From positions 1-22,728 of IMG/VR virus record IMGVR_UViG_3300030202_003189: a stretch of DNA of 22,728 nucleotides, one strand, 5' to 3'. Positions within the stretch are counted from its first letter, which is position 1, and each line of letters opens with the position of its first letter. The stretch is from a virus. This document shows, one piece after another, positions 9,469 through 22,728 of this stretch. Position numbers and translations under genes: made by a program. Under the pieces are notes generated by a model that worked only from the letters and a program-made list of their open reading frames with translations, searched no databases and was not told where the DNA came from.

Positions 9469-11475
9469 CTATTGGAAGTTACAACAGAAACCACTCCAAC
9501 TAGATGAACAACAAGCTTTCCACTTAATTACCCAATTATCTTCACTGTGTGATGCTTTCCAACTACAACAACCCCCATTACCTCCTTTACAACACCAACT
9601 TTGTTTTCCTGATGGTATTAATGGTCTAGATGGAACTGGTTTACTCGACTTAGCTATACCATATATTTCGTCAAATTCTTTATGAGTTTCATCTACAGTG
9701 TACTCTCTCCCATCTCCTTTTGTTACCATAAACACAGGTGAACCTTCGTCTTCTCCTACTAATTCTTCCATGTCCATATCGTAATCCTCTTCTTCCTCTT
9801 TAAGGAAAGATTGATAACTTTCAGCCACTGAATTATTAGGCATTGGTTGATCTGGCGAAGCAGGACAAGGTTTTACTTGCATATCTGGTCCAACACAAAC
9901 TGTTTGTTCATACACCTGTCCATTAAGACATTCAAGTACGGCGTTAAAGTAATAGGTAGTCTTATAATAAGGTGAAGCTGGATTAGACTCAATATATAAT
10001 CCTAATAAACCTACCGATCTAGTGTAATTTGGACAGGTTCCTATACTTGTCATCTTGTGTACCCCATCCTTATAGAACTTTATGGTACCTTGTCCACATA
10101 ATTGAGCCTCCATACTAACTGAGTTTGCATCAAATTGTGTTATACTTAAAGTGAATGAACAAGATTCCTCACCACACATTAGAGAGCTATCACCACCACC
10201 ACACTCTTCATACTTTTCCAGTTTCTCACTAGATTCTGCAGATGGGTCGATATCATTAACTTCTCCATCACTCATTTCTATATCTACTTGATCTGACTTA
10301 ATATCAATTCTTCCTCCAGACTTTAATTGAGATTCCATACTACTACCTTTGTCTAATTCTCGTTCTTTTATTAACTTTCGTACGAGATTGGTAATATCCG
10401 ATTCTTTTATTCTTATTTTCTCTACTTCTTCTTCCCTATCTCTTACATCTGTAAACGGTTCTTTTTCTTTACTTAAAGAAGAGTTATTTGACATACTCAT
10501 ATCCCTATCTTTCATCATTTCTTTATCCAGTGGTAATTTACCAGGACAATCACTGTCTAGACACATCTGCTTTGTAGGATAACAAGTGGTACCATCCCAT
10601 AGTTGATATTCTCTACATCTAACACATCTTGGATTTCCAAACTTATCTGGCATCCCACATGTCCATTTATTTGATTCTGCACATTGGTCCTGACAATCTT
10701 GTGTTGTAGTATAAGGACAATGACCAGCATCTACTACAGTCTGAGAACATGGAGTAGTACAGTCATGACATCTATAAAACTCTTGTGGGTTTCCAACACC
10801 ACAGGTATTATTACAATCAGTATAAGCGTTTGCTCCTGAAAACTGTCCACTACCATCACCAGGATCTATACAACTACCATTAACACAATCATAAGTTGGT
10901 GCCATAACTCCCAGTTGACACATTTGACAATCTCCGTATGGTCCCTGTATGTTTGTTATTGAGTCTGTACCCATCATCATCATGTGCTGTCCTGTCGAAG
11001 GAACACTTACGGGACCAACATACTCTAAACAGTAATCCTGTGGATTTGGTCCTTGAGAACCACTAGTGTATTTTAATGTAGTGCCCGGTGATGGAGAACC
11101 CATCCCTAGCCAAAAGGCCTCACTATTTTGATGAGTTGCATAATTTTGTAGACTTCCATTATTAGGATTTTGTGATGCGCTATTATATGGAGATGGTGCT
11201 CCCATATACCATCCATAACTACTAACTGGACTTGAACCATTCGCCCCTGCGACGCCCTGACCGTATTGAGCAATTGCAGCATCTATACTAAAACGGTCCC
11301 AGTATCTAATACCACTTCCTAAAAATACAGCATTAGAACAATCGAACCATTCATGATACGTGTTATTATTACTTCCTATTTGTTCTGATAATGTATTCTT
11401 GGAGTTTAATGGTTTAAGACCCATTAATGTTCTACCTCTATTTAGTTCTTCTGTGAGTTTTTTCGGTGTTTTCAT
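9469..11475 (-). CDS. Large Cys-rich late protein with terminal and internal targeting-type tags
   Basis: A 668-residue protein, probably a virion or fibre component. Residues 1-31 hold a helix (KKLTEELNRGRTLMGLKPL) of the EEINRIKxLMG type and a TLSEQ site. Residues 43-310 begin with W-F-D-C and carry more than 25 Cys in repeats such as YTDCNNTC and TQDCQDQC. Residues 354-371 are a second tag, IRIKESDITNLVRKLIKE, of the kind usually N-terminal in this region, so the protein looks like a fusion of two genes. Residues 430-530 resemble the beta domain of the next gene (TVCVGPD versus TVCIGGD). The last 45 residues hold four Cys-Cys pairs. A TATTTATA motif lies 45 nt upstream of ATG. No enzyme motif is seen. 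Confidence 0.8.
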   Translation of the reverse strand: MKTPKKLTEELNRGRTLMGLKPLNSKNTLSEQIGSNNNTYHEWFDCSNAVFLGSGIRYWDRFSIDAAIAQYGQGVAGANGSSPVSSYGWYMGAPSPYNSASQNPNNGSLQNYATHQNSEAFWLGMGSPSPGTTLKYTSGSQGPNPQDYCLEYVGPVSVPSTGQHMMMMGTDSITNIQGPYGDCQMCQLGVMAPTYDCVNGSCIDPGDGSGQFSGANAYTDCNNTCGVGNPQEFYRCHDCTTPCSQTVVDAGHCPYTTTQDCQDQCAESNKWTCGMPDKFGNPRCVRCREYQLWDGTTCYPTKQMCLDSDCPGKLPLDKEMMKDRDMSMSNNSSLSKEKEPFTDVRDREEEVEKIRIKESDITNLVRKLIKERELDKGSSMESQLKSGGRIDIKSDQVDIEMSDGEVNDIDPSAESSEKLEKYEECGGGDSSLMCGEESCSFTLSITQFDANSVSMEAQLCGQGTIKFYKDGVHKMTSIGTCPNYTRSVGLLGLYIESNPASPYYKTTYYFNAVLECLNGQVYEQTVCVGPDMQVKPCPASPDQPMPNNSVAESYQSFLKEEEEDYDMDMEELVGEDEGSPVFMVTKGDGREYTVDETHKEFDEIYGIAKSSKPVPSRPLIPSGKQSWCCKGGNGGCCSWKASHSEDNWVIKWKACCSSSWSGFCCNFQ

Positions 11476-11519
11476 GTTTTTATTTAAGTTTGTTTTTGTA
11501 TAGTTTATTGTACATTACA

Positions 11520-11527
11520 TATAAATA
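11520..11527 (-). promoter_or_regulatory. Late-promoter-like TATTTATA
   Basis: On the minus strand the sequence reads GGGTATTTATATG, 45 nt before the ATG at 11475. It is the copy furthest from its gene. Orientation follows the gene, as at the other seven sites. Confidence 0.5.
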
Positions 11528-11552
11528 CCCACGAAATAGAATAAAGTAATCA

Positions 11553-12575
11553 TTAAAATAATTCTTTAATTCTACTTATTTCATCATCTTCTGGATTTAT
11601 TTTTTTGGCACCAATGTTAGGGTTAGTTGGTTCTGATGGTCCACGATATTCCTTATCAATTTCTAGGGTTCCAGTATTTGAACAAGAGATTTCACTAAAA
11701 CCAGAAGAGTGGTCACCACCTATACATACAGTATGTGAATCTATTCCTTGGGTATACTCACATTCAATTTTAGCAGTATAGTTTCCAGATATTGTGGGAG
11801 GTACGACATATTCAGTCCCATAATTATTAAAATTTGATGCATTAAAACCTCCAGGTCCGCTAATAGTTAAATCCATACTTCCTGAGAAACCTGAATTACA
11901 ACCTTTTAATTTTAATGTTTGAGTTGATGAATCAAAAACAAAGTATTCCATAACACACTCCGCATCTGTTGGAGGAGGATTAAGATTTTGTATACCAGGT
12001 TGACTAAGACCTGATTGATTTAATGGTTTTATAATATTAAGTCCTGGGATGTTTGTAGTACATGTTGTATTAGGAGGTGGCGGAGGTGGATTAATTTGAG
12101 AACAATTATCTTGACAATATTCCATAGAACCAAATTCGTTCCCAGTTGCAAAAAACGAAGTTCCCTCATGTGAAAGTCCTACTTGTGTACAATTAGGATT
12201 TCCTTGTAAGTCGTGTCCACATACAAATTTAGAACTACATAAATTACCTCCAGGATGTGGATTCAATGAAATACCACCACTACCACTAATAGGAGTAACA
12301 TTTTTAACATACCAAGCAAGGTTACGATATTTGATATACATACCCACTTGAGGTGTTTGTCCACCGATATCACTAACAGCAGACCATGTAAGTGTTTTAT
12401 TCTGATAATCAGGCCAAGGGTCTCCATTTGGATCACAAGCCCCATATGTTCCACCAATTGGCCAGGTATTACTACAACTCCAGTCACCATAACCATTACA
12501 CCAGTCAGCACTTATTTTATAAGAAGTGGTCTGTTCATTTAATAGTTTATTGTATTTGTCTAATGATTCCCTCAT
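11553..12575 (-). CDS. Cys- and Pro-rich late protein, paralogue of the 668-aa protein
   Basis: A 340-residue protein starting at MRESLDKYNKLLNEQ, a tag ending in an LLNE site. Residues 26-160 are Cys-rich (W-C and W-S-C motifs, FVCGHDLQGNPNC, MEYCQDNC) and align with parts of the 668-aa protein (WTCGMPDKFGNPRC, TQDCQDQC). A Pro linker (INPPPPPPNTT, 161-171) leads to a beta-sandwich-like region (205-290) ending TVCIGGD. The C-terminus, DEISRIKELF, is a second tag-like helix. A longer reading to 12713 would add a pseudo signal peptide, but it runs through the promoter and intergenic repeats and is rejected. The start at 12575 lies 6 nt after TATTTATA. Likely a virion surface protein. Confidence 0.8.
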   Translation of the reverse strand: MRESLDKYNKLLNEQTTSYKISADWCNGYGDWSCSNTWPIGGTYGACDPNGDPWPDYQNKTLTWSAVSDIGGQTPQVGMYIKYRNLAWYVKNVTPISGSGGISLNPHPGGNLCSSKFVCGHDLQGNPNCTQVGLSHEGTSFFATGNEFGSMEYCQDNCSQINPPPPPPNTTCTTNIPGLNIIKPLNQSGLSQPGIQNLNPPPTDAECVMEYFVFDSSTQTLKLKGCNSGFSGSMDLTISGPGGFNASNFNNYGTEYVVPPTISGNYTAKIECEYTQGIDSHTVCIGGDHSSGFSEISCSNTGTLEIDKEYRGPSEPTNPNIGAKKINPEDDEISRIKELF

Positions 12576-12580
12576 ATTAA

Positions 12581-12588
12581 TATAAATA
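12581..12588 (-). promoter_or_regulatory. Late-promoter-like TATTTATA with upstream C-rich block
   Basis: Minus strand GAGTATTTATATTAATATG: the ATG is 6 nt beyond the motif, so the mRNA would be almost leaderless. Upstream on the minus strand lie CTTTAAT, AGCCCC and ACCTTCGGT in the same order as before the late promoter at 17065. Confidence 0.62.
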
Positions 12589-12635
12589 CTCACTACAGAG
12601 ATTAAAGTGTAGGGGGCTGGGGGAAAGATACCGAA

Positions 12636-12722
12636 GGTTCGAGGTACACAAGAGATAAGTAAAAAACAAGAAAGGAGGGATGGGAGGATAGTACCTTCTG
12701 GTTCGAGGTGCACAATAGATAA
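12636..12722. repeat. Imperfect direct repeat, two 23-nt copies
   Basis: GGTTCGAGGT-A-CACAA-G-AGATAA at 12636-12658 and GGTTCGAGGT-G-CACAA-T-AGATAA at 12700-12722 match at 21 of 23 positions with a 64-bp period. Read on the minus strand both are followed by pyrimidine-rich tracts, so the repeat unit is probably about 50 bp. It looks like a duplicated regulator-binding or RNA element upstream of the minus-strand late gene. Confidence 0.7.
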
Positions 12723-12731
12723 CTTTAAGTT

Positions 12732-12806
12732 CTAAGTCTTATAACTCCTCTCCCATTATTCCCCCTCACTTCGTTCAGGTAATGGTCGTGTACTTATAAG
12801 ACTTAG
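12732..12806. repeat. 13-bp perfect inverted repeat with nested stem
   Basis: CTAAGTCTTATAA (12732-12744) and TTATAAGACTTAG (12794-12806) are exact inverted copies 49 nt apart. Inside, CCATTA (12753-12758) can pair with TAATGG (12780-12785), giving a cruciform or a long RNA hairpin. No T-run follows on the plus strand. Confidence 0.7.
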
Positions 12807-12859
12807 TCCTCCTTAGTGAATGTTAGAGTGAAACAACAGAGGATTGTGTTAATGCATTC

Positions 12860-12895
12860 AAAGGTCTTAAAGAAACTAGATTAGTTTAGACCTTT
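12860..12895 (+). other. Two-step hairpin upstream of a late promoter
   Basis: AAAGGTCT (12860-12867) pairs with AGACCTTT (12888-12895), and within it AAACTA (12873-12878) pairs with TAGTTT (12882-12887) around a 3-nt loop, leaving a 5-nt bulge on one side. It lies 20 nt before the TATTTATA at 12915. It could block read-through or bind a regulator. Confidence 0.6.
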
Positions 12896-12914
12896 ACATA
12901 AGGAATAACGTGCA

Positions 12915-12922
12915 TATTTATA
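12915..12922 (+). promoter_or_regulatory. Late-promoter-like TATTTATA
   Basis: GCATATTTATAATAAAAAC, with the ATG at 12938, 16 nt after the motif. The same spacing occurs at 21305, and 17 nt at 17065. It presumably drives the 12938-14445 unit, which ends at the terminator at 14521. Confidence 0.65.
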
Positions 12923-12937
12923 ATAAAAACAGTTATT

Positions 12938-13168
12938 ATGAATGAAAAAGAAAAAGCAATGAGATATAACACTCTAATGAGTGAGTATATACGTTTAGAG
13001 AACATGATGAAACAAGTTCCTCAGTTATCACTAGACGAACAAATGAAAAACATAGATGCAACCCATAAGGTATTATATACACCAGAAAATGAAGCTCTAG
13101 TTAATCAGTATAAATCAAGAATGTATGCGATACAACATGAGGCGCAAACAAAACAACTAATCAGATGA
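12938..13168 (+). CDS. Small helical late protein
   Basis: A 76-residue, almost fully helical protein (MRYNTLMSEYIRLENMMKQ, then a second helix ENEALVNQYKSRMYAIQHEA). It has no Cys and no clear tag of the type found in neighbouring late proteins. It heads a three-gene late unit behind a TATTTATA promoter and overlaps the next gene by 4 nt (ATGA). Scaffold-, chaperone- or coiled-coil-type roles would fit, but nothing decides. Confidence 0.72.
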   Translation: MNEKEKAMRYNTLMSEYIRLENMMKQVPQLSLDEQMKNIDATHKVLYTPENEALVNQYKSRMYAIQHEAQTKQLIR

Positions 13169-14115
13169 AAACAAGACGTGTAAAGATTTCCCAATCCCAA
13201 CTAGCAAGACTAGTAGAAAATAAAGTAAATGAAAATACTGGTGGTGTAGGAAATCTATCCACTGACGACTCTCCTAATATAGGTATGGGTTCGTCTAAGT
13301 TAGTAACAAAGACTCATATGAACAAACCAGCAGGTAGGTTAAACATTATGGGTGGTACAAATCCACAACAGTTTAAGGAAGGAGGAAGAAAAGAACCTCA
13401 AGGTATGTCTTATAAAAAAGAAATGATGGGAGAAAATAAGTCTAGTGAAAGATTAGATGGTAACAATATAGTAGTAATATGGCCAAGTAGACAATCACAA
13501 CAAGAGATGTCAGGTAAGTTAGACCAAATGGGACTAGAGTTACCAGATGAATGGGAAGTAGGAATGGCTTGTCATTTATGTTGTTGTCCTCTTCATATGT
13601 CAATACAACCTTGTGACTATGGTAAACCTAATAGAAGAAGAGGAGACGGTATGTATGAAAACTCTCACACTATTCCACATAGTGACCAACAAGATTTCTT
13701 TAACGAAGAAGAGGAAGATGAGTATGTAGATACTAGAACACACTTACCTGATGATGGTGGACTCGGTGGTGGAGGAGGTGGAACTCCTTCAGTAGGAGGA
13801 ATACCAGGTTTACCAGTAGGACCTAAAGGTAAAGTAAGAAATAATCCATATAAACCAGGAAAATTAAAAGAAGAGATTACAGCAGGTGGACCTTGTATTT
13901 GTAGAAAGTGGGTGATGGGTTCTGATGGTATAAACAAATGTGTCAGTTATAGTCCTCCTGGATGTGCTGATGCCCCATTTAAGAAAGCCAATGATGATGA
14001 AGATACTGTAAATAAAAAGAAGATTAATCCTAGAGTAATAAGAAGACAAGATAGGGATAAAGCTAGAAGAAGACCTTACTCTTCTAAAGCAAGAGACATG
14101 AGAGGAAGTAGATAA
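13165..14115 (+). CDS. Late protein with N-terminal tag and low-complexity Gly/Pro region
   Basis: A 316-residue protein. The N-terminus MKTRRVKISQSQLARLVENK is a variant of the ESDLTNLIxRVVKE tag, with LVE and VNE sites. Residues 30-110 are polar. A Cys cluster ACHLCCCPLHMSIQPC (134-149) is a possible metal or disulfide knot. An acidic stretch (NEEEEDEYVD) precedes a Gly-rich linker and a short collagen-like piece (GGIPGLPVGPKGK). A second small Cys motif follows (GGPCICRKW, with CVSYSPPGC further on), and the tail is Arg-rich. The build, with tag, linkers and basic tail, suits a virion-internal or decoration protein. No enzyme motif is seen. It is coupled to the gene before by an ATGA overlap. 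Confidence 0.75.
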   Translation: MKTRRVKISQSQLARLVENKVNENTGGVGNLSTDDSPNIGMGSSKLVTKTHMNKPAGRLNIMGGTNPQQFKEGGRKEPQGMSYKKEMMGENKSSERLDGNNIVVIWPSRQSQQEMSGKLDQMGLELPDEWEVGMACHLCCCPLHMSIQPCDYGKPNRRRGDGMYENSHTIPHSDQQDFFNEEEEDEYVDTRTHLPDDGGLGGGGGGTPSVGGIPGLPVGPKGKVRNNPYKPGKLKEEITAGGPCICRKWVMGSDGINKCVSYSPPGCADAPFKKANDDEDTVNKKKINPRVIRRQDRDKARRRPYSSKARDMRGSR

Positions 14116-14127
14116 AAGAATACAACA

Positions 14128-14445
14128 ATGAAAAACTTAATAAGAATAATCAAAGAAGAACTCTCATTACTCCAAGAGAAAGAGAAGTGTTGTAGAAGAT
14201 ATGAATGGATGGGTGGTGAATGGAAATGTACTAAATATAGAAAATGTGCAGATGGTGAAAAACCTGTAGGACAATCACCTCAAGGTATACAAGAAGATAA
14301 AGAAAAAGAATGTTGTGTATGTTATGAAAAGAAACCTGTACTAGGTCATGTTCAAACAGGACCACACGATGGTGATGGATGGAAATGGAAGTGTTGTGGA
14401 TATAAACCATGTAGTGAACTAACTCAAGGTTTCACTCTAGGATAA
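14128..14445 (+). CDS. Small Cys-rich late protein with N-terminal tag
   Basis: A 105-residue protein. The first 17 residues (MKNLIRIIKEELSLLQE) form an amphipathic helix ending in (I/L)-x-E-like sites, similar to tags on its late neighbours. The rest has two related Cys units: EKCCRRYEWMGGEWKCTKY with KC, and KECCVCYEK followed by GWKWKCCGYKPC. Both have a CC pair and a W-K-C segment, so the protein looks internally duplicated. Disulfide or zinc binding is possible. It is the last gene of its unit, followed by a terminator at 14521. Function unknown, probably virion-associated. Confidence 0.75.
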   Translation: MKNLIRIIKEELSLLQEKEKCCRRYEWMGGEWKCTKYRKCADGEKPVGQSPQGIQEDKEKECCVCYEKKPVLGHVQTGPHDGDGWKWKCCGYKPCSELTQGFTLG

Positions 14446-14520
14446 ATGTAATGGGATTCCATTGAAGACTATACACTAAAACACCATTGAGGTTGTATAC
14501 ATTTAGACACGCAAACAAAG

Positions 14521-14542
14521 AGACCCTTAGGGGTCTTTTTTT
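14521..14542 (+). terminator. Intrinsic terminator
   Basis: AGACCC (14521-14526), loop TTAG, GGGTCT (14531-14536) and a run of seven T directly after. This is the classical hairpin plus U-tract and closes the 12938-14445 unit. It is the clearest terminator in the window. Confidence 0.9.
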
Positions 14543-14953
14543 ATGGGATGCGATCCCCTATATGTTCCCCACTAAGAACGTTTAATACATGTCACCATAT
14601 ACAGTGTATGAGGGTTTATTTATCCTTTACACAGTACTTTTCCCCATTTGTACCATAATTATTGTTAAAGGATTCCTTTACTAATCATTACTACGGAGCA
14701 CTCTTTACCACCATTTCCCACTTACTACCACTATCTACCACCACTATAATGTGGGTTTTCATCGGCAAAAACCGTGATTTATAAAATGACACTATGAGTG
14801 GATCTAGTAACTAAACCTCGAAAAACGTCTCTACCTGCGTTGCCCCTTTCGGAAATTGTTTCATTTAAGTCCCGGATTTTTTGACAAGTTGCTAACAAAT
14901 CGTGGATTCTCTCGTGGAAAACCCCGATAATTGTTGATAACTAATGGTTCCAT

Positions 14954-15189
14954 AATTAGGCCACGTTAATTATTAGTTGTACCTTTAGGGTGCAGGTGGG
15001 TGGGTAGTGCGATGCCCGGAACTATTTCACGTGCAAGCATACCTTCCCGCCCGCCCTACAAAGGTACGGAAAATTCCTGACATGGCCAAATTATTTACCT
15101 GACAATATTACCACTGTTAATAACTCCTGGGAAAGTTATGAACATCTAAATTATTTTGTCACATTGTCATAGATTAAATTAGGCCACGT
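14954..15189 (+). repeat. 13-nt direct repeat inside the island
   Basis: AATTAGGCCACGT occurs at 14954-14966 and again at 15177-15189, 223 bp apart. The second copy runs into the palindrome CCACGTGG. The copies flank most of the proposed closed domain at 15050-15225. Confidence 0.65.
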
Positions 15190-15225
15190 GGAAAACATTT
15201 CGTACCTTAGGGGTGGTAGGGCGGG
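15050..15225. repeat. Long-range inverted repeat closing a domain
   Basis: CCCGCCCTAC (15050-15059) is the exact inverse of GTAGGGCGGG (15216-15225). Next to it AAGGTACG (15061-15068) is the exact inverse of CGTACCTT (15201-15208). Together they give 18 paired bases in two blocks with a small asymmetric loop, enclosing 132 nt. Confidence 0.7.
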
Positions 15226-15344
15226 CACCTAGGCCCGTGTCCTAACCACGCTAGCTAGTCACTCCCTGTCCCTTACCCCCCTGACCATCCACTACACACC
15301 CCCCTGGGGGTAGGTGGCATGACCCCCCTATGAATGAATGAGTA

Positions 15345-15379
15345 CCCCCTAGGGGCCCCCTCCCCCCTGGGTACCCCCC
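15345..15379 (-). other. G-quadruplex-type motif on the minus strand
   Basis: Four C-tracts on the plus strand (15345-15349, 15356-15360, 15362-15367, 15374-15379) are separated by 6, 1 and 6 nt. The minus strand therefore meets the usual four-tract, loop-1-to-7 rule with five or six G per tract. Competing plus-strand palindromes (CCCCTAGGGG, GGTACC) overlap it. Confidence 0.6.
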
Positions 15380-15563
15380 GTGTATCCCCTCTTACAGTAG
15401 GTATGACACCACTCATAAGGGGCGGCGACGCTGCAAATAAATTTTCTGAGAAATTTTTGCTTAGAGGTTTGAGTTATTAATTACCCTATAATAAAAGAGG
15501 GGGTGGGTATAATTTGGTTTTAGTGAAAAATTTTTTGCCAGAATTTTTTAATGGATGTTTTGG

Positions 15564-15571
15564 TATTTATA
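15564..15571 (+). promoter_or_regulatory. Late-promoter-like TATTTATA
   Basis: TTGGTATTTATAGTTATG, with the ATG at 15575 only 4 nt after the motif, so the transcript for the small lipoprotein and its two neighbours would be nearly leaderless. Confidence 0.6.
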
Positions 15572-15574
15572 GTT

Positions 15575-15682
15575 ATGATTAAAATAAAACACATATTGTT
15601 TATACTACTATTATTTTCCGCAGGGTGTTCAGTAACTAGTGACGTTCCTAAGGATCATAAGGAGTGTTGTACAAAGAAATGA
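15575..15682 (+). CDS. Small predicted lipoprotein
   Basis: A 35-residue protein with a type II signal peptide: basic MIKIKH, hydrophobic ILFILLLF, and a lipobox-like SAGC with lipidated Cys18. The mature part would be only 18 residues (CSVTSDVPKDHKECCTKK), with a second CC pair near the end. Very short outer-membrane lipoproteins are known as phage o-spanins (Rz1-like), and the two membrane proteins encoded directly after it could be its partners in lysis. No holin or endolysin is seen nearby, so this is a suggestion. It overlaps the next gene by 4 nt. Confidence 0.68.
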   Translation: MIKIKHILFILLLFSAGCSVTSDVPKDHKECCTKK

Positions 15683-15765
15683 TATTAGGGACTATAATAA
15701 TAGTGAGTATCTATTTAACCTTTAGATTTATATTCTGGGTAATAGAAAAATTAGGGGATGATTAA
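15679..15765 (+). CDS. Single-pass micro membrane protein
   Basis: A 28-residue protein consisting of one membrane helix (ILGTIIIVSIYLTFRFIFWV) and a short polar end IEKLGDD. ATG overlaps the lipoprotein stop (ATGA) and its end overlaps the next start by 8 nt, giving a tightly coupled three-gene unit. Possible lysis-unit or membrane accessory peptide; no family recognised. Confidence 0.5.
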   Translation: MILGTIIIVSIYLTFRFIFWVIEKLGDD

Positions 15766-15994
15766 AATATTAAAATTTATAAAGAGTATAGTAGACCCTA
15801 ATTGGTGGGCTGAGAAGATTGGTATGAAGTCTGGTTTTTATGAATGGGCTATGAAATCTCCATTACGTAAATGGGCTCTTAGTTTAGAAGGGTGGAAATG
15901 GTGGTTCTATCAAATAGTTTTTTGTGGTGGTTTATTTATAGGATTAGAATATCTTCTCAATCAAATCGGAATGACTTTATTACCATGGAGGTAA
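15758..15994 (+). CDS. Small membrane protein
   Basis: A 78-residue protein. Residues 1-48 are amphipathic and Trp-rich (VDPNWWAEKIGMKSGFYEWA, then LSLEGWKWW), and residues 49-67 (FYQIVFCGGLFIGLEYLLN) form the one clear membrane helix. A short end IGMTLLPWR follows. The Trp-rich N-terminal part may lie along the membrane surface. It is coupled to the upstream micro-protein and ends 1 nt before the 3' end of the converging tRNA gene. Confidence 0.68.
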   Translation: MIKILKFIKSIVDPNWWAEKIGMKSGFYEWAMKSPLRKWALSLEGWKWWFYQIVFCGGLFIGLEYLLNQIGMTLLPWR

Positions 15995-15995
15995 G

Positions 15996-16070: not shown

Positions 16071-16316
16071 TAACTTAGTGTAAGAACTTGGACTAATAAT
16101 GTAGTTCCATAACTCTCCACCACATTCATCATCTTCATCAACGAGATTTTCTTCTACTGTAATATCTTTAGGGAGAATTCGTTTCAATTTTTCAATATCT
16201 ACTTTTCTCCAATAACCAAATCTTAAACTTAAGGAACCAAGTCTATAAGAAGTACCTACCTCAAAGGAAGTAAACTCGTTTGCTATTTGTTCTAAGGATT
16301 CAATTGATATTCTCAT
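16056..16316 (-). CDS. Small hypothetical protein overlapping the tRNA 5' end
   Basis: An 86-residue soluble protein starting at MRISIESLEQIANEF. An ATG 36 nt upstream is possible, but it would overlap a preceding micro-ORF. The sequence alternates strands and helices (SYRLGSLSLRFGYWRKVDIE, then acidic VDEDDECGGELWNYI). The leader AACAAAATAAAAACA is A-rich, as at other starts. Its last codons and TAG stop lie inside the tRNA-Pro gene (15-nt overlap), so RNase P processing of the tRNA would cut the end of this mRNA. Function unknown. Confidence 0.65.
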   Translation of the reverse strand: MRISIESLEQIANEFTSFEVGTSYRLGSLSLRFGYWRKVDIEKLKRILPKDITVEENLVDEDDECGGELWNYIISPSSYTKLRGVA

Positions 16317-16321
16317 TGTTT

Positions 16322-16408
16322 TTATTTTGTTATTCTTAGACCGAACCACCAAAGGTCCAATCTTATGAACGGTTTGTTTTTATGTTTACCAAATCCAAAA
16401 CGTAACAT
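16322..16408 (-). CDS. Basic micro-protein
   Basis: A 28-residue ORF, basic and aromatic (LRFGFGKHKNKPFIRLDL, then WWFGLRITK). It ends 5 nt before the ATG at 16316 and lies between two better-supported genes on the same strand. The opening FGFGKHKNKPF and its snug fit suggest a real small gene, but so short a frame could be chance. Confidence 0.4.
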   Translation of the reverse strand: MLRFGFGKHKNKPFIRLDLWWFGLRITK

Positions 16409-16436
16409 TCTGTTTTCTTTGTTAAGTTTTATCTTT

Positions 16437-16727
16437 TTAATCTTCACCTCTTATTGCGTCATGGTCATACTCTCCTTCACATACTCCATCATCGTACATT
16501 ATGGTGTTATCATAATCTCCAAGTTTACGAGATCTTATTTTATCCGTATCAGGATTTCTTTCGTATATAATTTCTTTTTTTTTATCTGGGGTTTTATGAT
16601 TATCCCATTTTTTTAGGTTTTCCATAAATTCCTTATGGTCTTCTATTCTTCTACCTTCTTTGATTGCATATTTTCCTAAATGATAAATTGCTATTATTAC
16701 TACTATTAGTATTATTGTTCCTGTCAT
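16437..16727 (-). CDS. Membrane-anchored charged protein
   Basis: A 96-residue protein with one N-terminal membrane helix (GTIILIVVIIAIYHLGKYA, residues 3-21) and a long, highly charged tail (GRRIEDHKEFMENLKKWD, ending acidic DDGVCEGEYDHDAIRGED). There is no lipobox. The tail is probably cytoplasmic. The leader is A-rich (AAATAAAAAT). It follows the first gene of the unit by 4 nt. Function unknown. Confidence 0.7.
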   Translation of the reverse strand: MTGTIILIVVIIAIYHLGKYAIKEGRRIEDHKEFMENLKKWDNHKTPDKKKEIIYERNPDTDKIRSRKLGDYDNTIMYDDGVCEGEYDHDAIRGED

Positions 16728-16731
16728 ATTT

Positions 16732-16926
16732 TTATTTTATTTGAGCTTCGTACCATTCTTCATAAGTCATTGGTCTTTCCATTAACTGTTGTCTAACATC
16801 TAGTGAGTATGCCGCGTATTCACTTGCCATTTCTTTTGTTTCCTTAAGAATAGCTTTTCTAATTTGTTCTCTTACGACGGTATTCACTGGAATCCATTGT
16901 TTTAATAGTTGGTCTACTTCTTTCAT
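16732..16926 (-). CDS. Small helical hypothetical protein
   Basis: A 64-residue soluble helical protein (EVDQLLKQWIPVNTVVREQI, then ETKEMASEYAAYSLDVRQQL), ending MTYEEWYEAQIK. It opens the minus-strand unit and its ATG lies exactly five bases after the G of TATCTTTG, so the message should be leaderless, as before 2839 and 6605. Function unknown. Confidence 0.7.
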   Translation of the reverse strand: MKEVDQLLKQWIPVNTVVREQIRKAILKETKEMASEYAAYSLDVRQQLMERPMTYEEWYEAQIK

Positions 16927-16930
16927 AGGA

Positions 16931-16961
16931 CAAAGATAAGCAATTATAATGATGTGGCCAA
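16931..16961 (-). promoter_or_regulatory. Bacteroidetes-type promoter giving a leaderless transcript
   Basis: On the minus strand: TTG at 16961-16959, a 20-nt spacer, TATCTTTG at 16938-16931, then TCCT and the ATG at 16926. Geometry equals the plus-strand promoters before 2839 and 6605. It drives a small-gene and tRNA unit inside the late region, so this unit is probably expressed early. Confidence 0.75.
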
Positions 16962-16998
16962 GAAAGTCTACTATAAAATTGACCGCCGGAACTCGGAA

Positions 16999-17058
16999 CC
17001 GGACTGTCGTCCGGACCTTCGGTCTCGTCTCCCCCGACCCCAGCCCCTTTTCTTTAAT
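16999..17058 (+). promoter_or_regulatory. Structured C-rich upstream block shared with another late promoter
   Basis: Hairpin CCGGAC-TGTC-GTCCGG (16999-17014) is followed by ACCTTCGGT (17015-17023), a C-rich run with CAGCCCC (17041-17047) and CTTTAAT (17052-17058), then TATTTATA at 17065. ACCTTCGGT, AGCCCC and CTTTAAT occur in the same order before the minus-strand late promoter at 12581-12588. This suggests a copied or conserved extended promoter or RNA element. Confidence 0.6.
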
Positions 17059-17064
17059 TTATGG

Positions 17065-17072
17065 TATTTATA
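17065..17072 (+). promoter_or_regulatory. Late-promoter-like TATTTATA
   Basis: ATGGTATTTATAATAAAAC, with the ATG at 17089, 17 nt after the motif. The C-rich block at 16999-17058 lies directly upstream. Confidence 0.65.
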
Positions 17073-17088
17073 ATAAAACAATTATAAG

Positions 17089-17454
17089 ATGAGAGATTTA
17101 TTGAATAGATACAAACAATTACTAAACGAAGCAAAAGAATTATCTGGTGAAACTGAAATGGAAGAGTTTGCTGAGAAAAGAGGTTCTGGTGCTGAAAAGA
17201 TTAGTGATAGTGCTAAGGAAAAGGGAGGACTTTCTCTTTTAACTTATAATCACTTTAGAGTTAAATTACCTTATTACAAAAAAGCGGCAGAAGGTAAATT
17301 AAATATGGATACGGCTAAGAAAGAATATAACAAACATCTTGAAAAACTTTATTCTTCTACTAACGAAGATATGAATCTTAGTCAGACAGCCTTTCAGGAA
17401 TTAATGGGTAAAATTGAAGTGTTAGGAGAATTATTGTTGGAAAGTAACGAATAA
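17089..17454 (+). CDS. Small helical late protein with LLNEA tag
   Basis: A 121-residue helical protein. The first 17 residues (MRDLLNRYKQLLNEAKE) are a near-copy of the N-terminal tag on the 340-aa minus-strand protein (ESLDKYNKLLNEQ), with the LLNE site at residues 11-14. The rest is soluble and charged (GGLSLLTYNHFRVKLPYYKK, FQELMGKIEVLGELLLESNE) and contains no Cys, unlike the other tagged proteins. It stands alone between two TATTTATA motifs. Could be a scaffold-like or virion-internal protein. Confidence 0.75.
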   Translation: MRDLLNRYKQLLNEAKELSGETEMEEFAEKRGSGAEKISDSAKEKGGLSLLTYNHFRVKLPYYKKAAEGKLNMDTAKKEYNKHLEKLYSSTNEDMNLSQTAFQELMGKIEVLGELLLESNE

Positions 17455-17490
17455 CCTAAAAAAACCCCTTTTCTTTTATGGGTTGTAACG

Positions 17491-17498
17491 TATTTATA
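17491..17498 (+). promoter_or_regulatory. Late-promoter-like TATTTATA
   Basis: AACGTATTTATAATATATG, with the ATG at 17503 starting 5 nt after the motif, so translation would begin near the mRNA 5' end. A short CCCCTTTTCTTT run upstream is shared with the promoter at 17065. Confidence 0.63.
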
Positions 17499-17502
17499 AT
17501 AT

Positions 17503-20500
17503 ATGAAAAATAGGAAATTACTTAACGAATACTATTCTAACTGGAACGATGCATTACTCCTTAACGAACAACAAGTTCCGGGTGGTCCTGGTAACTATGG
17601 AAATGTTTGGGAATTTTGTGGTGTTACACCAGGTCCTCAGGGACAACTGGGGGCTACAGCATTTTCAATAGGACTTAATGCAGGTACTGTTCAATATGGT
17701 GATATTGCTGATGTAGATTATGGTGTTAATGGTTATTACCTGGGTATACCAAACTATTGGGTACCGGAAAAATGTAACGATCAATTATGTACTCAAGCTG
17801 ATGTGGGTAACGAATTTGAAGTTATTATCAAACCAAACCACTATCAAGCTGCAACATATCATCTTAGACTTGTATCCGTTGGACAATCTACACCAACTGT
17901 AACTAACGTCTGTAATTATGGTTCGAACCCACCAGCAACAAACATATATAATTGTCCTCATTATTATAATAACTTTGTAGATGGTAATTGCCTTCCTAGT
18001 CCAGAATATGGATGTACGGACCCGACAGCTACCAACTACCTTCCAACGGCAACAATGGATGATGGGTCTTGTGTCTATCCAATTCCTGGATGTACTGACC
18101 CGGCAGCTAATAACTATAACCCAAATGCCACGGTAGATGACGGAAGTTGTACTTTTACCGATATTTGTCATGGTGAGTTAAGTTGGATGATATGTGACCA
18201 AGGTAATTCCGGATACCCTCCGGGAAGTGGTCCTGTTTGGTCGTCAATGGGTCCTGGAACAGTAGCACCGACCCCAGATGGGTGTTTTCAATGTGATGGT
18301 CAAATGTGTACTGCCGCAGATATAGGACAACCTTTCCAACTTCCAAACTACACTGGAGGTGTGCCAACCACAGCTGTTGGTTTATTAGATTCTATTGCTT
18401 TACCTAAGTATATGCAACCTCAAGATATATATAACGCACAGGCTGCTGTTTGTCCTCCACCACAAGGATGTACTAATCCTCTTGCAACCAATTACGACCC
18501 ACTTGCTGTGGTAGACGATGGAAGTTGTATTATTCCTGGTTGTACAGATGTAAATGCAAACAATTATTTACCAAGTGCAACAATTGATGATGGAAGTTGT
18601 ACTTATGATGTTCTTGGATGTACTGACTCTACCGCCACAAATTACGACCCACTTGCTACCGTAGATGATGGAAGTTGTTATTGGGAAGGATGTACGGACC
18701 CAACTGCAACTAATTACGACCCTAACGCTACCGTAGATGATGGAAGTTGTATTATTCCTGGGTGTACAGACCCAGCAGCGACAAATTATAACCCTAATGC
18801 TACCATAGATGATGGAAGTTGTGTATTCCCAACTGTTGGATGTACCGATCCTACCGCAAGTAATTATAATCCTGTAGCAACAGTAGACGATGGTTCTTGT
18901 TACTGGTTAGGTTGTACCGACCCAGCGGCGACTAATTACGACCCTAACGCCACTCAAGATGACGGTTCTTGTATTTATCCAGTTTATGGTTGTACAGACC
19001 CAGCAGCAACAAACTATAACTCCTTAGCAACAGTAGACGATGGTTCATGTGTTTATCCAATTCCTGGATGTACTGATCCGTTGGCTTTTAATTATGACCC
19101 AAACGCAACAGTGGATGATGGTTCATGTTTATATGATGGTTGTACAGATATAAACGCCACTAATTTTAATCCTAATGCTAACGCAGATTGTTCAGGTGTT
19201 CCAGGTGGTCCTGATACGAGTTGTTGTATATATCCAGTTCCAGGTTGTCCAGACCCTACTGTGGTAGGACCAATTGTTAATACAGGTACACAATTTTGTG
19301 TTAATGGTTGTGAAGTATACGACCCTCTTGCTATTGGATGTCCAGATAATAATGGATTGGTAGTACCGGGTGATACTAGTTGTTGTTGTTTTTTAGGTTG
19401 TACCGACGTAAATGCAACCAATTATGACCCACTTGCTTGTATCGACGATAACTCTTGTCAATTACCTCCTCCAATAAACTGTTCATGTTGTGAAGTAGGT
19501 CAACCTGGTACCATAAGTCAACCAGTAGGGATAATGATTAATGGTTGGACACCGGGTGGTTGTGCTTCCTTGAACTCCGCAACTCTTACAAATTGTGATA
19601 CGGCACAAGCGTTTGACCCAACTGATTGTGAACCAGACTGTACTACTTTTGATTTTTCAAGTGCTACCAATCTACCCAATTCTTTAGGGTCTACCTATAC
19701 CATGTTAAACGATGCTTATAATATGGGTTTACAAAATAGTCAAGCTTATGGGATAATGGATGGAAATAGTACTTTTTGTTACGAATTTTGTGTAGCTGGA
19801 GGTGGAACCCATTGGGCTTGTGATTGTTGTGGGGATATACATGATTGTGACCAAGATACGTATTGGCCAAAACCTTATGGATGTTGGACTTGTCGTGACG
19901 ATAATACTTGTGGTCAACCATCCCCAAGTTGGATGTCAAGTAATATGACTCTTAACTACTATAATAATCAAGCTGATTGTTTAGCCGATGCCCCAGTTAA
20001 TTGTCCTCCAAAACCTAGTTGTGATAATACCCCAGAATTTTGTTCACAAACTCCATCTTTAACTCCAGGAGGTTCATGTTGGATTTGTCATCACCAGACT
20101 GTTTGTTTACCAGTTTATGATTATTTAGAATACGGATCAGGACCTCCAGGGTCAACTGGAACTTATTCCTTTATGATGAATTGGTTAATACCACAAGGAA
20201 CAAACCCACAAACTTATAAAACTCCTCAAGGGAGTGATTTATTCTGTAACGCTCAAGATTGTGTTGCAAACTCTCCATGTACTGAATGGGATACTTGGAA
20301 AGCAGAAGATTGTGGACCACCACCAGGTGGGTGTCCTCCTAATGAAATTTGGTATCCTTACCCTAAATGTGAATGTGGTTTACCTAAGGTGATAGACCCA
20401 GTAGATAAAAAAAGACCTAAAGATAAGGAAAAGGAAAAAGAACTAGACGTTGAAAAAACTGATTCGGATCGTGAAAATAAAGAAACAATAAAGGAAGAAT

Positions 20501-20538
20501 TTAGTCGAATGAAAACTATCTGGAATTATAAGTTATAA
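17503..20538 (+). CDS. Giant Cys-rich late protein with GCTDP/DDGSC repeats, probable fibre or adhesin
   Basis: A 1011-residue protein without signal peptide. Residues 1-23 hold two tag sites (KLLNEY, LLLNEQ). A domain at 36-105 (WEFC, then CNDQLCTQADVGNEF) is duplicated at 228-277 (WMIC, then CDGQMCTAADIGQPF), the second copy splitting the repeat array. From 170 to 652 run about 14 units that start GCTDP, carry NYxP and end DDGSC. These are common in secreted proteins of marine Bacteroidetes, and the acidic ends may bind calcium, with the two Cys forming a disulfide. Residues 653-950 are Cys-rich. The charged C-terminus ends with a tag-like helix (TIKEEFSRMKTIWNY). It is probably a virion fibre or surface protein with host-derived repeats. 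Confidence 0.85.
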   Translation: MKNRKLLNEYYSNWNDALLLNEQQVPGGPGNYGNVWEFCGVTPGPQGQLGATAFSIGLNAGTVQYGDIADVDYGVNGYYLGIPNYWVPEKCNDQLCTQADVGNEFEVIIKPNHYQAATYHLRLVSVGQSTPTVTNVCNYGSNPPATNIYNCPHYYNNFVDGNCLPSPEYGCTDPTATNYLPTATMDDGSCVYPIPGCTDPAANNYNPNATVDDGSCTFTDICHGELSWMICDQGNSGYPPGSGPVWSSMGPGTVAPTPDGCFQCDGQMCTAADIGQPFQLPNYTGGVPTTAVGLLDSIALPKYMQPQDIYNAQAAVCPPPQGCTNPLATNYDPLAVVDDGSCIIPGCTDVNANNYLPSATIDDGSCTYDVLGCTDSTATNYDPLATVDDGSCYWEGCTDPTATNYDPNATVDDGSCIIPGCTDPAATNYNPNATIDDGSCVFPTVGCTDPTASNYNPVATVDDGSCYWLGCTDPAATNYDPNATQDDGSCIYPVYGCTDPAATNYNSLATVDDGSCVYPIPGCTDPLAFNYDPNATVDDGSCLYDGCTDINATNFNPNANADCSGVPGGPDTSCCIYPVPGCPDPTVVGPIVNTGTQFCVNGCEVYDPLAIGCPDNNGLVVPGDTSCCCFLGCTDVNATNYDPLACIDDNSCQLPPPINCSCCEVGQPGTISQPVGIMINGWTPGGCASLNSATLTNCDTAQAFDPTDCEPDCTTFDFSSATNLPNSLGSTYTMLNDAYNMGLQNSQAYGIMDGNSTFCYEFCVAGGGTHWACDCCGDIHDCDQDTYWPKPYGCWTCRDDNTCGQPSPSWMSSNMTLNYYNNQADCLADAPVNCPPKPSCDNTPEFCSQTPSLTPGGSCWICHHQTVCLPVYDYLEYGSGPPGSTGTYSFMMNWLIPQGTNPQTYKTPQGSDLFCNAQDCVANSPCTEWDTWKAEDCGPPPGGCPPNEIWYPYPKCECGLPKVIDPVDKKRPKDKEKEKELDVEKTDSDRENKETIKEEFSRMKTIWNYKL
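18010..19458 (+). repeat. Tandem 72-78 bp coding repeats (about 14 units)
   Basis: Units begin at about 18010, 18088, 18466, 18538, 18616, 18688, 18760, 18838, 18910, 18988, 19066, 19138 (degenerate) and 19396, plus a diverged unit in between. Most are 72 or 78 bp. The DNA coding for DDGSC is often identical (GATGATGGAAGTTGT), so unit loss or gain by recombination is likely. The change from GGAAGTTGT in early units to GGTTCTTGT/GGTTCATGT in later ones suggests blocks of different age. Confidence 0.9.
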
Positions 20539-20555
20539 TTAATGGATAGATTACA

Positions 20556-20563
20556 TATTTATA
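20556..20563 (+). promoter_or_regulatory. Late-promoter-like TATTTATA
   Basis: TTACATATTTATAATAAAG, 29 nt before the ATG at 20592. It follows the stop of the repeat protein by 17 nt, with no terminator between. Confidence 0.58.
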
Positions 20564-20591
20564 ATAAAGACCAAAATAAAAATTAAAAGAT

Positions 20592-21272
20592 ATGCCAGCA
20601 CCAGGGTTTGATAAATGGAGATTGTGTTCAGGAGGGAATAATGTTCCTGGTTCATCTATTGGAGATGGTTCGCAACCATCAGGACCGGAATTGGGATTAT
20701 ATATTGAGTATTTCGATGCTGTTAATGGTGTTGAGGGACAACATTGGTCAAATTCGGGTAGTGGAGTTGGTTCAGGTCAATGGGGGTCAGGTATAACATA
20801 CGACTCAATGATGAACTCTTCTGGTGTGAATTATCAACTAGGTTCACAAAAACCTAGTGCAGGGGAAGTTGTTGGTCTTTCAATTGGAGGACAATGGTTG
20901 GGATGTATGATGTATACAGGGAGATCTAGTGGTTCACCTTTTCCATCTTTTTATCCAGCGGCAACACCTGACCCAATTGGTCAAATTCCTCCAGGACAAG
21001 ATCATTATTGGGAACCGCAACAAGCAACTGCAAGTCAAGTATTCTCTGATTGTTATGGTTGTGTCTGGGGAGCAACGGACCCTGGTGGACCAATAGAAAC
21101 TGATTGGGAACTCGAAAATCCAGATTTAGAGTTTGTAAAACGACCTCCTAAACCAGGAAGTGAGACAATAAAAGATAGAGAACATAAAGAAGAAAAACCT
21201 TCAGGGGAAGGTAACGAAAGAAAAGAACTAAGAGAAGAAGTTAACAAAATTAAAAGATTGATTGGGTATTAA
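20592..21272 (+). CDS. Late protein with C-terminal tag helix, paralogue of Cys-rich family
   Basis: A 226-residue protein. It begins with a W-R-L-C motif (KWRLCSGG), like the W-x-x-C openings of the other Cys-rich late proteins. A Gly/Ser-rich, beta-type region follows (LGLYIEYFDAVNGVEGQHW, then VGLSIGGQWLGCMMYTG) and ends in SDCYGCVWGATDPGGP. There is no N-terminal tag. Instead the C-terminus is charged and ends in a helix LREEVNKIKRLIGY, matching the EEINRIKxLIGY tag type. The LGLYIEY and GLSIGGQWLGC strands resemble VGMYIKYRNLAWYV of the 340-aa protein. Likely part of the same surface or decoration set. Confidence 0.78.
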   Translation: MPAPGFDKWRLCSGGNNVPGSSIGDGSQPSGPELGLYIEYFDAVNGVEGQHWSNSGSGVGSGQWGSGITYDSMMNSSGVNYQLGSQKPSAGEVVGLSIGGQWLGCMMYTGRSSGSPFPSFYPAATPDPIGQIPPGQDHYWEPQQATASQVFSDCYGCVWGATDPGGPIETDWELENPDLEFVKRPPKPGSETIKDREHKEEKPSGEGNERKELREEVNKIKRLIGY

Positions 21273-21304
21273 CCTTTAATCTACGATTTTATTAACTTTT
21301 GATG

Positions 21305-21312
21305 TATTTATT
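21305..21312 (+). promoter_or_regulatory. Late-promoter-like TATTTATT
   Basis: GATGTATTTATTATAAAAAC, with the ATG at 21328, 16 nt beyond the motif and in the same position as at 12915. The last base of the octamer is T rather than A. CCTTTAATCT upstream recalls the CTTTAAT block of two other late promoters. Confidence 0.58.
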
Positions 21313-21327
21313 ATAAAAACATTTATT

Positions 21328-21933
21328 ATGGGAAAAAAAATTAGATTAACCGAAACAGAATTAACTAGAATAATCGCAGACCTAGTTAGAGAAGAAACAG
21401 AAAAAAGAAAAGGAAAGAAGGAGGGTCCAACTTCAAGAAAAGACTTAAAAAAACTTAGTAAAAAAGACTGTAAAAAACTAATGAAGTGTATGAATATGGA
21501 CTCTATGGATTCTATAATGAAAGGTTATTCTAAAATGTATAATGAATCCCCTAAATGGGCGAAAGGAAAATCTTTAACACCTTCTGAGTTCAAAATGAGA
21601 ATGGGTGATTTACCACCAGATGAAGATCCTAAACCAGCGGCTTGTATAATTTTAGCAATATTTAGTTGGACTATTGCGGCTTGGGCGTTCGCCACTTGGT
21701 GTGGTTGGGAACACTCTGACTCTAGATTAAAAGAAAATATAAATAGAACTGGAATTTCTAAATCTGGAATTCCAATTTATACATTTAACTATAAAAATGA
21801 CGATACTCTTTGGTCAGGTGCGATGGCACAAGATTTATTAAATATGGGTATGGAAAATGTAGTAAAGACTATGGATAATGGTTATTACTCAGTTAATTAT
21901 AATATGATTGATGTCGACATGACCAGTCTTTAA
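21328..21933 (+). CDS. Small protein with C-terminal Peptidase_S74 chaperone domain
   Basis: A 201-residue protein. Residues 1-23 (KKIRLTETELTRIIADLVREE) are an N-terminal tag. Residues 24-100 are basic and charged. Residues 104-126 are hydrophobic (ACIILAIFSWTIAAWAFATW), possibly a membrane helix or a core coil. Residues 130-201 match the intramolecular chaperone of phage tailspikes and fibres: SDSRLKENI, then IPIYTFNY, WSGAMAQDLL and YSVNYNMIDV. In this family the domain drives trimerisation of the preceding fibre and cuts itself off before its Ser. Here almost no fibre precedes it, so it may act in trans on other late proteins or sit at the end of a short trimeric stalk. Confidence 0.85.
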   Translation: MGKKIRLTETELTRIIADLVREETEKRKGKKEGPTSRKDLKKLSKKDCKKLMKCMNMDSMDSIMKGYSKMYNESPKWAKGKSLTPSEFKMRMGDLPPDEDPKPAACIILAIFSWTIAAWAFATWCGWEHSDSRLKENINRTGISKSGIPIYTFNYKNDDTLWSGAMAQDLLNMGMENVVKTMDNGYYSVNYNMIDVDMTSL

Positions 21934-21961
21934 TAAAAATAAAAATTAAACAAAAACAAAA

Positions 21962-22354
21962 ATGAAAAAAATTAGACTTAGTGAATCAGACTTAACAAAC
22001 TTAATTGAAAGAGTCGTTAAAGAACAAGCTGCTCAAGTTGGTGGTTTTGGTTATGGGTTTGCTCCTGTAACAGAAGACACTGAAGGTGAAGAAACTTATA
22101 ACTATGGTGAATTAGAAGGAGCTGACCATAGAGAAGAAATGGGTTTAGAACATGAAATGGGTATGGCACCTGCTGATAGAATCGGTGAGATAGAAAAACA
22201 TTTAGACGCACTTAAAAAAGATATGTCTTATGATGAAAGTCATGAAGATAGAGGTGAAGCAAATACATCATTCGCAGAAAGTATGAGAAGAAAAGCTGCT
22301 AACTTAAGAGAGTCTAGAAGAAATCAAAACAGAAGAATCAGAAGAAGAAGATAA
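21962..22354 (+). CDS. Late protein with N-terminal ESDLTNLI tag
   Basis: A 130-residue protein. The tag KKIRLSESDLTNLIERVVKEQ (residues 2-22) is the clearest version in the window and ends at a VVKE site. A Gly/Phe linker (VGGFGYGFAP) leads to an acidic, Met-rich region (GLEHEMGMAP) and a helix (IGEIEKHLDALKKDM). The last 25 residues are Arg-rich (NLRESRRNQNRRIRRRR), a likely DNA-binding tail. Tag, acidic spacer and basic tail would suit a DNA-binding protein packed inside the head. A-rich leader; 28 nt after the S74 gene. Confidence 0.75.
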   Translation: MKKIRLSESDLTNLIERVVKEQAAQVGGFGYGFAPVTEDTEGEETYNYGELEGADHREEMGLEHEMGMAPADRIGEIEKHLDALKKDMSYDESHEDRGEANTSFAESMRRKAANLRESRRNQNRRIRRRR

Positions 22355-22355
22355 T

Positions 22356-22728
22356 ATGGCTAGACCAATTAAAATAAAAGAGAGTGATTTAACCAATATG
22401 GTTAAAAGAATACTCGCTGAAAAGGGAGTAAATGAAGCCATAGGAGGAGGTATGAGTATGAGTGGAGGAAGAAGACTTAATGAAGCACCATATTGTCCAG
22501 GAGGATGTGGTGAATGTGAATGTGTACATCATGGGAAGTTCGGTAGATGTGACTGTGATGGTATGATGGATAACTGGTGGGGTAATGACTGGGGTAAAGT
22601 TGCTGATGATGGAGGAGGAGATGATATTAAAATGGCAAAACAAAAAGAACTAAGAGAGTTCCATGAGTATTCAAAGAATAGAACAAACATAGAAAGATTC
22701 CTTAATGAAATGGAAGATAGAAAGATGG
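22356..22728 (+). CDS. Tagged Cys-rich late protein, cut by the window end
   Basis: The frame is open for 124 codons to the edge. It begins ARPIKIKESDLTNMVKRILA, again the ESDL tag. A Gly/Met/Ser-rich linker follows (GGGMSMSGGRRLNEAP), then a compact Cys cluster (YCPGGCGECECVHHGKFGRC, with CDC after it) that could bind zinc or form a small disulfide knot. WWGNDWG and an acidic Gly-rich part come next, and the visible end is helical (ERFLNEMEDRK). The start is 1 nt after the previous stop. Function unknown. Confidence 0.7.
   Translation, partial: MARPIKIKESDLTNMVKRILAEKGVNEAIGGGMSMSGGRRLNEAPYCPGGCGECECVHHGKFGRCDCDGMMDNWWGNDWGKVADDGGGDDIKMAKQKELREFHEYSKNRTNIERFLNEMEDRKM

Follow-up and report, generated by a model that had tools for sequence, protein, structure and literature searches.

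Many proteins encoded in a 22,728-nucleotide stretch of viral DNA (bases 1 to 22728 of the 231,285-base IMG/VR virus record IMGVR_UViG_3300030202_003189, here termed the window) carry short tags that are very probably capsid-targeting propeptides, working like those of the internal proteins of bacteriophage T4. Because the tags end in the site of the head protease and one kind of tag copies the tail of the scaffold protein, they most likely load cargo into the phage head. The system is best explained as T4-style capsid targeting, greatly expanded, with tags at N-terminal, C-terminal, and internal positions and with one family mimicking the scaffold tail. An earlier sequence-only reading of the window had proposed a common address that brings diverse cargo to one virion part, and this proposal was supported by the head gene module, the cleavage site of the major capsid protein (MCP), the likeness to the scaffold tail, and the 145 clusters of bodies found behind the tags.

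Tag families and their distribution in the phage genome

The remainder of the record was read in stretches, and the open reading frames (ORFs) of the whole record were called mechanically. All ten tagged proteins originally named, together with the peptides quoted from them, were recovered in the translations at their coordinates. The tags on these proteins are related, as had been claimed, but they do not constitute one shared tag, since at least three families could be distinguished. Family A has the consensus (K)IRLTESDLTRIVKRVIKE/ (a slash marks the predicted cleavage position) and the pattern (K)[IV][KR]L[TSK]E[ST][DE][LI]T..[VI]..[VIL].E. Family C has the pattern [LI]xE-[EQ]-hydrophobic-x-R-[MI]-[KR]-x-L-[MIW]-[GKN], that is, xE/E-hydrophobic-xRMKxLMG, and the remaining tags are the shorter forms LLNE/Q and IIKKVIKE/.

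Tag profiles were scored by leave-one-out and calibrated against four shuffles of every protein. With the family A profile, all 10 seeds and 3 more proteins (13 in total) scored above every decoy; with the family C profile, 9 seeds and 1 more protein (10 in total) did so. By these calibrated profiles, 21 proteins and the prohead protease carry a tag, and the matches outside the seeds include the proteins at 41906, 202900, and 145195 and the C terminus of the prohead protease. The tags therefore extend far outside the window, across the 231-kb record. About 40 proteins of the phage were judged to be tagged by inspection, the individually significant ones being those supported by a profile. Over the whole record, the motif [LIV][LIV]xE was present in the first 36 residues of 47 of 186 proteins, compared with 121 of 1461 internal 36-residue windows (p = 1.7e-10), making it three times commoner near the protein start than in protein interiors.

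Conservation of family A ends at the gp21 cleavage motif

Family A tags were retrieved from IMG/VR with two DNA patterns for LTESDL, and the statistics that follow cover the matches listed. There were at least 245 unique motif matches, mostly no more than 15 aa from the protein start, and 223 of those listed lay within 8 residues of a Met. In the columns of these 223 tags that lie outside the search pattern, P1 was Glu in 89%, P3 was Ile or Leu in 83% (Val in 13%), and P2 was free. The information content was 3.2 bits at the Glu and then fell to 1.1 and 0.3 bits in the next two columns. Family A conservation ends exactly at (I/L)-x-E, which is the cleavage motif of T4 gp21 (L/I-X-E; PMC9026906). 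The bodies that follow differ widely, as originally noted: at least 200 tagged proteins fell into 145 unrelated body clusters. Synonymous codons vary freely within the tag, indicating that the peptide is what is selected.

A tblastn search of phage records with the 23-aa consensus tag gave no matches, so that family A could not be placed in any cultured phage; family C did turn up in a cultured phage, Flavobacterium phage immuto, whose host is LMO8. A search of 257 Gb of cellular genomes with the first of the two DNA patterns gave 38 matches, one of which looks like a real tag. This convincing cellular copy is located on scaffold_1 (408 kb) of the uncultured Bacteroidales genome RUG153, a contig that may be or contain a huge phage; a gp21-type protease was searched for in this genome and was not found.

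The head module and the protease site

Searching the genome for a gp21-like protease and a scaffold had been suggested from the window alone, and both were found within a T4-type head module at 60.7 to 74.3 kb. This module encodes a terminase large subunit, a portal (phrog_213; 9e-66), a gp21-type protease (phrog_207; 4.6e-45), an acidic scaffold-like protein, and a gp23-type MCP (phrog_138; 6e-67), and four tagged proteins (65442, 68377, 69590, and 70370) are interleaved between the portal and the scaffold. The N-terminal extension of the phage's own MCP ends ...ASYLINE/QTTSTDSG. In 79 relatives the MCP propeptide reads ENQASxLINE/A or very nearly so, with INE kept in all of them, and the equivalent site of T4 gp23 is FLTE/A. 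Moreover, the C terminus of the prohead protease itself (residues 210-229, RPQKIMESKLDETIKNFLKD) scores as family A. When 22 virus records of at least 117 kb were chosen for the tag only, a gp21-type protease was present in 21 and a gp23-type MCP in 20; among 14 random large contigs, the protease was present in 8 and the tag pattern in none.

Family C and the scaffold tail

A docking surface on the scaffold that matches the tags had also been anticipated, and family C was found to be similar to the helix at the scaffold's C terminus; the likeness is clearest in the clade of phage immuto. At the end of its scaffold, the phage studied here has YQDPQMKRMMDLMSKIK; its relatives have NPQFLRMKDLMSKIK there, mostly with LIE/ in front. 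With a profile built from the relatives' scaffold tails only, the phage's own scaffold ranked first, and 8 of the 10 proteins ranked next were tag carriers matched at their tag sites (hypergeometric P = 2.7e-11); family C had been defined before this profile was built, though the likeness had already been noted by eye. The immuto scaffold (gp067) has ISEVSEQVSRWQKLAGIIK at its C terminus, and MKKQILSEQFRRMQKLAGIITE/S and MKKQILSEQFKRMQFLAGIITE/S open two other immuto proteins; these tags score 47 and 40 against immuto's own scaffold tail, with the next protein at 27. Cuts are predicted after ITE in the tagged immuto proteins gp083 and gp230, which would then begin SQFNEE... and SEMWDR..., and after VSE in the immuto MCP. 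The usual form of the scaffold tail across 80 immuto-like loci is VI[SN]E/VSDAVRRMQKLAGIIK, and a scan with the tail of this clade recovered about ten further proteins with the helix at a terminus, mostly the N terminus, followed by an xE site. There is one clear C-terminal copy in the clade, KTAINE/VKRMQLLAGLGSSN, with the site on the body side; C-terminal family C tags likewise carry (I/L)xE on the body side. Scaffold tails differ by clade (RMKxLM(G) versus RMQKLAGI), and tags match the scaffold of their own clade: clade-2 tags reached 13 to 42 against the scaffold profile of clade 2, but with that of clade 1 they scored 6 at most and mostly below 0. Judged from these sequences, family C seems to be an imitation of the helix with which the phage's own scaffold ends.

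The same comparison of scaffold tails with a phage's own proteins gave no tags in RM378, Mel-JY01, or two huge uncultured phages; Mel-JY01 was covered in full and the uncultured phages near the head genes only. Another recurrent leader, NFxLKKFLxENKLTxNSxLLKE, was observed on gp076 and gp077 of immuto (L097:7221-8521) and at L503:196-1086 and is probably a further tag family.

The same body can carry different tags

Members of the body family YMFFSNL...GHDWAQDHI have a family A tag in front, or MKNLDSLIRRVIKE/E of the short type, or a different leader. A hydrophobic-x-E site lies no more than 14 residues before the body in 32 of 33 distinct orthologues, and in the remaining one VIQE stands slightly further upstream. 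In the DHH phosphoesterase family, the leader is MKRVKLTEFEIHSLIDRVLLKE/TGIRD in this phage and MKKLIKE/SGIRD or MKIIITENQLKSLISE/SGIRN in relatives; these tags range from 7 to 22 aa, the Glu is invariant, and the common body begins directly after it. Likewise, protein 17089 carries MRDLLNRYKQLLNE/AKE at its N terminus (17089..17130, plus strand), and its orthologue in immuto bears a different tag, MRLLELLRE/AKE.

Homology links the stand-alone tagged protein 30284 to a C-terminal region of protein 68377 that has an internal tag standing before it. On this sequence relationship, the internal tags of 68377 probably mark domain borders, and by analogy the internal tag of the window's 668-aa protein (described below) is probably the border between two cargo domains.

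Proposed mechanism and points against it

We infer a head location for the cargo, along with docking, cleavage, and ejection, as follows. During prohead assembly, the tag, as a short amphipathic helix, would dock its protein on the scaffold core or the inner shell. Cleavage after (I/L/V)-x-E by the gp21-type protease would follow, where an N-terminal tag ends or a C-terminal one begins, and a cut at an internal tag would separate fused domains. Mature bodies would remain in the head with the DNA, with ejection into the next host probable. Since family C appears to mimic the scaffold tail, its cargoes would enter the core in the place of that tail, and the tag-like C terminus of the protease would fit the idea of a self-targeting gp21 propeptide. 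With less assurance, although we lean toward it, a broader proposal can be made in which a large group of immuto-related T4-like phages would share a general, exchangeable address code for filling their heads with dozens of different proteins, with swapped families, the scaffold-tail copy at either end, and internal tags splitting fused cargo in the head, so that the virion would act as a multi-protein injection device.

Several observations weigh against capsid targeting. No virion mass spectrometry or proteomics was found in the literature for any tagged phage. The T4 leaders score strongly negative with the family A and family C profiles, and the T4-type relatives Mel-JY01 and RM378 are without both families. 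The original claim that many tags end in (I/L)-x-E held, but about four of the ten window tags have Val at P3 and fit (I/L/V)xE, and T4 gp21 is not described as preferring Val. Some relatives have no more than the 7-residue leader MKKLIKE, which is barely a docking helix; the protease's family-A-like C terminus is not kept among relatives; and the phage's own scaffold tail, used as a single query, did not recover its own tags, the relatives' profile being needed. Finally, co-occurrence with the protease discriminates only moderately (p = 0.008), and the tagged contigs, having related MCPs, are not independent.

Alternative explanations

It is improbable that the tags are instead uncut docking helices for another virion part (baseplate, neck, or outer shell) in which the terminal xE is incidental. 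Several tagged proteins do look extracellular, being Cys-rich or containing GCTDPxAxNYxPxAxxDDGSC repeats as found in untagged secreted-looking proteins and tail-module genes, and the S74 chaperone domains on some of them are typical of tail fibres. However, conservation ends exactly at the protease motif, the MCP propeptide has the same site, in C-terminal copies the motif faces the body, and the copied partner, the scaffold, is an internal protein. A further possibility, and a very unlikely one, is that Clp-type proteases of the phage use the tags as degrons or processing signals, so that the tags would set the lifetime of a protein rather than its location. The phage encodes a ClpP-like protein, and terminal tags are a known degron format; yet processive degrons need no exact cut site, whereas here the P1 Glu is fixed across swapped tags and the border is sharp, and the tags resemble the scaffold tail and use the MCP site. 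A nucleotide-level element, acting in translation initiation or mRNA structure, would account for the position of most family A copies at the start codon, but we give it almost no credence, given that synonymous codons vary freely and that C-terminal and internal copies exist. Chance amphipathic helices, finally, are just as implausible: single short tags such as LLNEQ and NRYKQLLNEA are not significant alone, but the decoy-calibrated profiles, the drop in information, the 145 clusters, the positional enrichment, and the invariant Glu refute this explanation for families A and C, while for the shortest forms the evidence is positional enrichment and the comparison of orthologues.

Comparison with known capsid-targeting systems

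The T4 internal proteins IPI, IPII, and IPIII and the Alt protein carry capsid-targeting sequences (Mullaney and Black; PMC9026906, PMC3012670). The T4 leader confers affinity for the core, and its removal frees the body; Alt is processed at both ends, and gp21's own propeptides have been suggested to target gp21 (PMC9026906). The system described here shares with that of T4 a short N-terminal leader ending in L/I-X-E, unrelated bodies, a gp21-type protease, and a gp22/gp23-type scaffold and MCP. It differs in that the tags show no likeness in sequence to MKTYQEFIAE and leaders akin to it, and in having about 40 carriers rather than a handful, tags at C-terminal and internal positions, and a scaffold-tail-like family. 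The likeness to T4 originally proposed was thus upheld by the shared site and head module, but not by the C-terminal and internal placements or by any detectable sequence kinship with the T4 tags. Because the T4 leaders are dissimilar to families A and C, the tags can be said to work like T4 capsid-targeting sequences without shown common descent.

In the phiKZ-like giant phages (SPN3US, phiKZ, and 201phi2-1), a gp21-related protease strips propeptides from many inner-head or ejection proteins, and two diverged paralogues there have an identical N terminus (PMC5694885). The removal of propeptides from many proteins is a shared feature; however, several propeptides in those phages exceed 100 residues, the motif is A/S-x-E, and a scaffold counterpart is unconfirmed, whereas the tags here have 7 to 30 residues and a scaffold is present. 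In P22, the C-terminal domain of the scaffold is needed for capsid assembly, and it serves in engineering as a handle for cargo, which scaffold fusions carry into capsids (PMC9962691). This is an analogy of function, the tags here being natural, short, and probably removed by proteolysis. No report of these tags was found in the literature, of which subscription journals were not covered.

In phages where most genes lack a known function, the tags make it possible to predict head cargo from sequence, and perhaps injected proteins as well; they also suggest how a capsid-targeting sequence finds the core, namely, by imitating the scaffold tail. Phage immuto, being cultured, allows a direct test.

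Cargo bodies

Most tagged bodies are without known function. The recognisable cargo includes peptidoglycan-binding domains, a Tae4-like amidase, and endolysin-like domains, and a VanY carboxypeptidase with a peptidoglycan-binding domain sits behind a family C tag. The DHH phosphoesterase has a weak match to Pfam DHH, and its best fold match is RecJ-like, from a model of moderate confidence. The peptidoglycan-binding, carboxypeptidase, amidase, and RecJ-like proteins are plausible tools for the first minute of infection. Two tagged paralogues (window 21328-21933; record 146041-146778) end in an S74 chaperone-of-endosialidase domain, and a third S74 domain (record 114253-114387) is on an untagged protein; S74 domains are usually found on tail fibres. 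GCTDPxAxNYxPxAxxDDGSC repeats (window 17503-20538; record 33021-36809, 172625, and 203415) are common to tagged proteins (17503 and 203415) and untagged ones, and the untagged repeat protein at 33021 looks secreted, with a C terminus like those of type IX secretion system substrates.

Tagged genes of the window

Pfam and PHROGs gave almost no matches for the tagged proteins of the window. The double-tagged, Cys-rich 668-aa protein (9469..11475, minus strand) belongs to no Pfam or PHROG family; it has an N-terminal family C tag, MKTPKKLTEELNRGRTLMGLKPLNSKNTLSE/Q (11383..11475; leave-one-out score of 27.6, above all decoys), with a predicted cut after LSE, and the internal family A tag EKIRIKESDITNLVRKLIKE/R (10363..10422; 37.4). 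The real start of the minus-strand gene at 11553-12575 is an internal Met at 12575, from which the translation begins with an LLNE/Q tag, MRESLDKYNKLLNE/Q (12534..12575). Its C-terminal EISRIKELF (11556..11582, minus strand), originally listed as a tag, is family C-like and ranks 10 with the scaffold-tail profile but is the weakest of all (decoy fraction of 0.008) and has no preceding (I/L)xE.

The other tags are on the plus strand. A family A tag, MKTRRVKISQSQLARLVENKVNE/N, is N-terminal at 13165..13233 (leave-one-out score of 21.7), and a short-type tag, MKNLIRIIKE/ELSLLQE/K, is N-terminal at 14128..14178, as seen in the translation and consistent with the positional enrichment. The 1011-aa repeat protein has an N-terminal LLNE/Q tag in its translation (17503..17568) and a C-terminal family C tag, ETIKE/EFSRMKTIWNYKL (20482..20535; 27.5), also matched by the scaffold-tail profile. 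The 226-aa protein carries a C-terminal family C tag, KELRE/EVNKIKRLIGY (21222..21269; 28.0), and no N-terminal tag, with in-frame stops directly upstream of the gene. Three further N-terminal family A tags are MGKKIRLTETELTRIIADLVRE/E (21328..21393; 32.1), on the protein with the C-terminal S74 domain, MKKIRLSESDLTNLIERVVKE/Q (21962..22024; 46.2), and MARPIKIKESDLTNMVKRILAE/K (22356..22421; 36.5). Directly past the end of the window is a run of 10 N (record 22729-22738), and a nearly exact repeat of bases 22565-22622 follows at 22739-22796, indicating that the contig was joined there and that gene 22356 is not reliable past the join.

Elsewhere in the window, a ClpP-like protease gene lies at 5424-6086 (phrog_94 and others, phrog_94 being named head maturation protease). 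Further along the record, inspection by eye alone picked out a large Clp-like ORF (51507) and another ClpP-like ORF (227944). The proteins encoded at window 378-1379 and record 215141, whose function is unknown, are homologous to each other (194 aa aligned at 27% identity), and one of them has a possible short tag.

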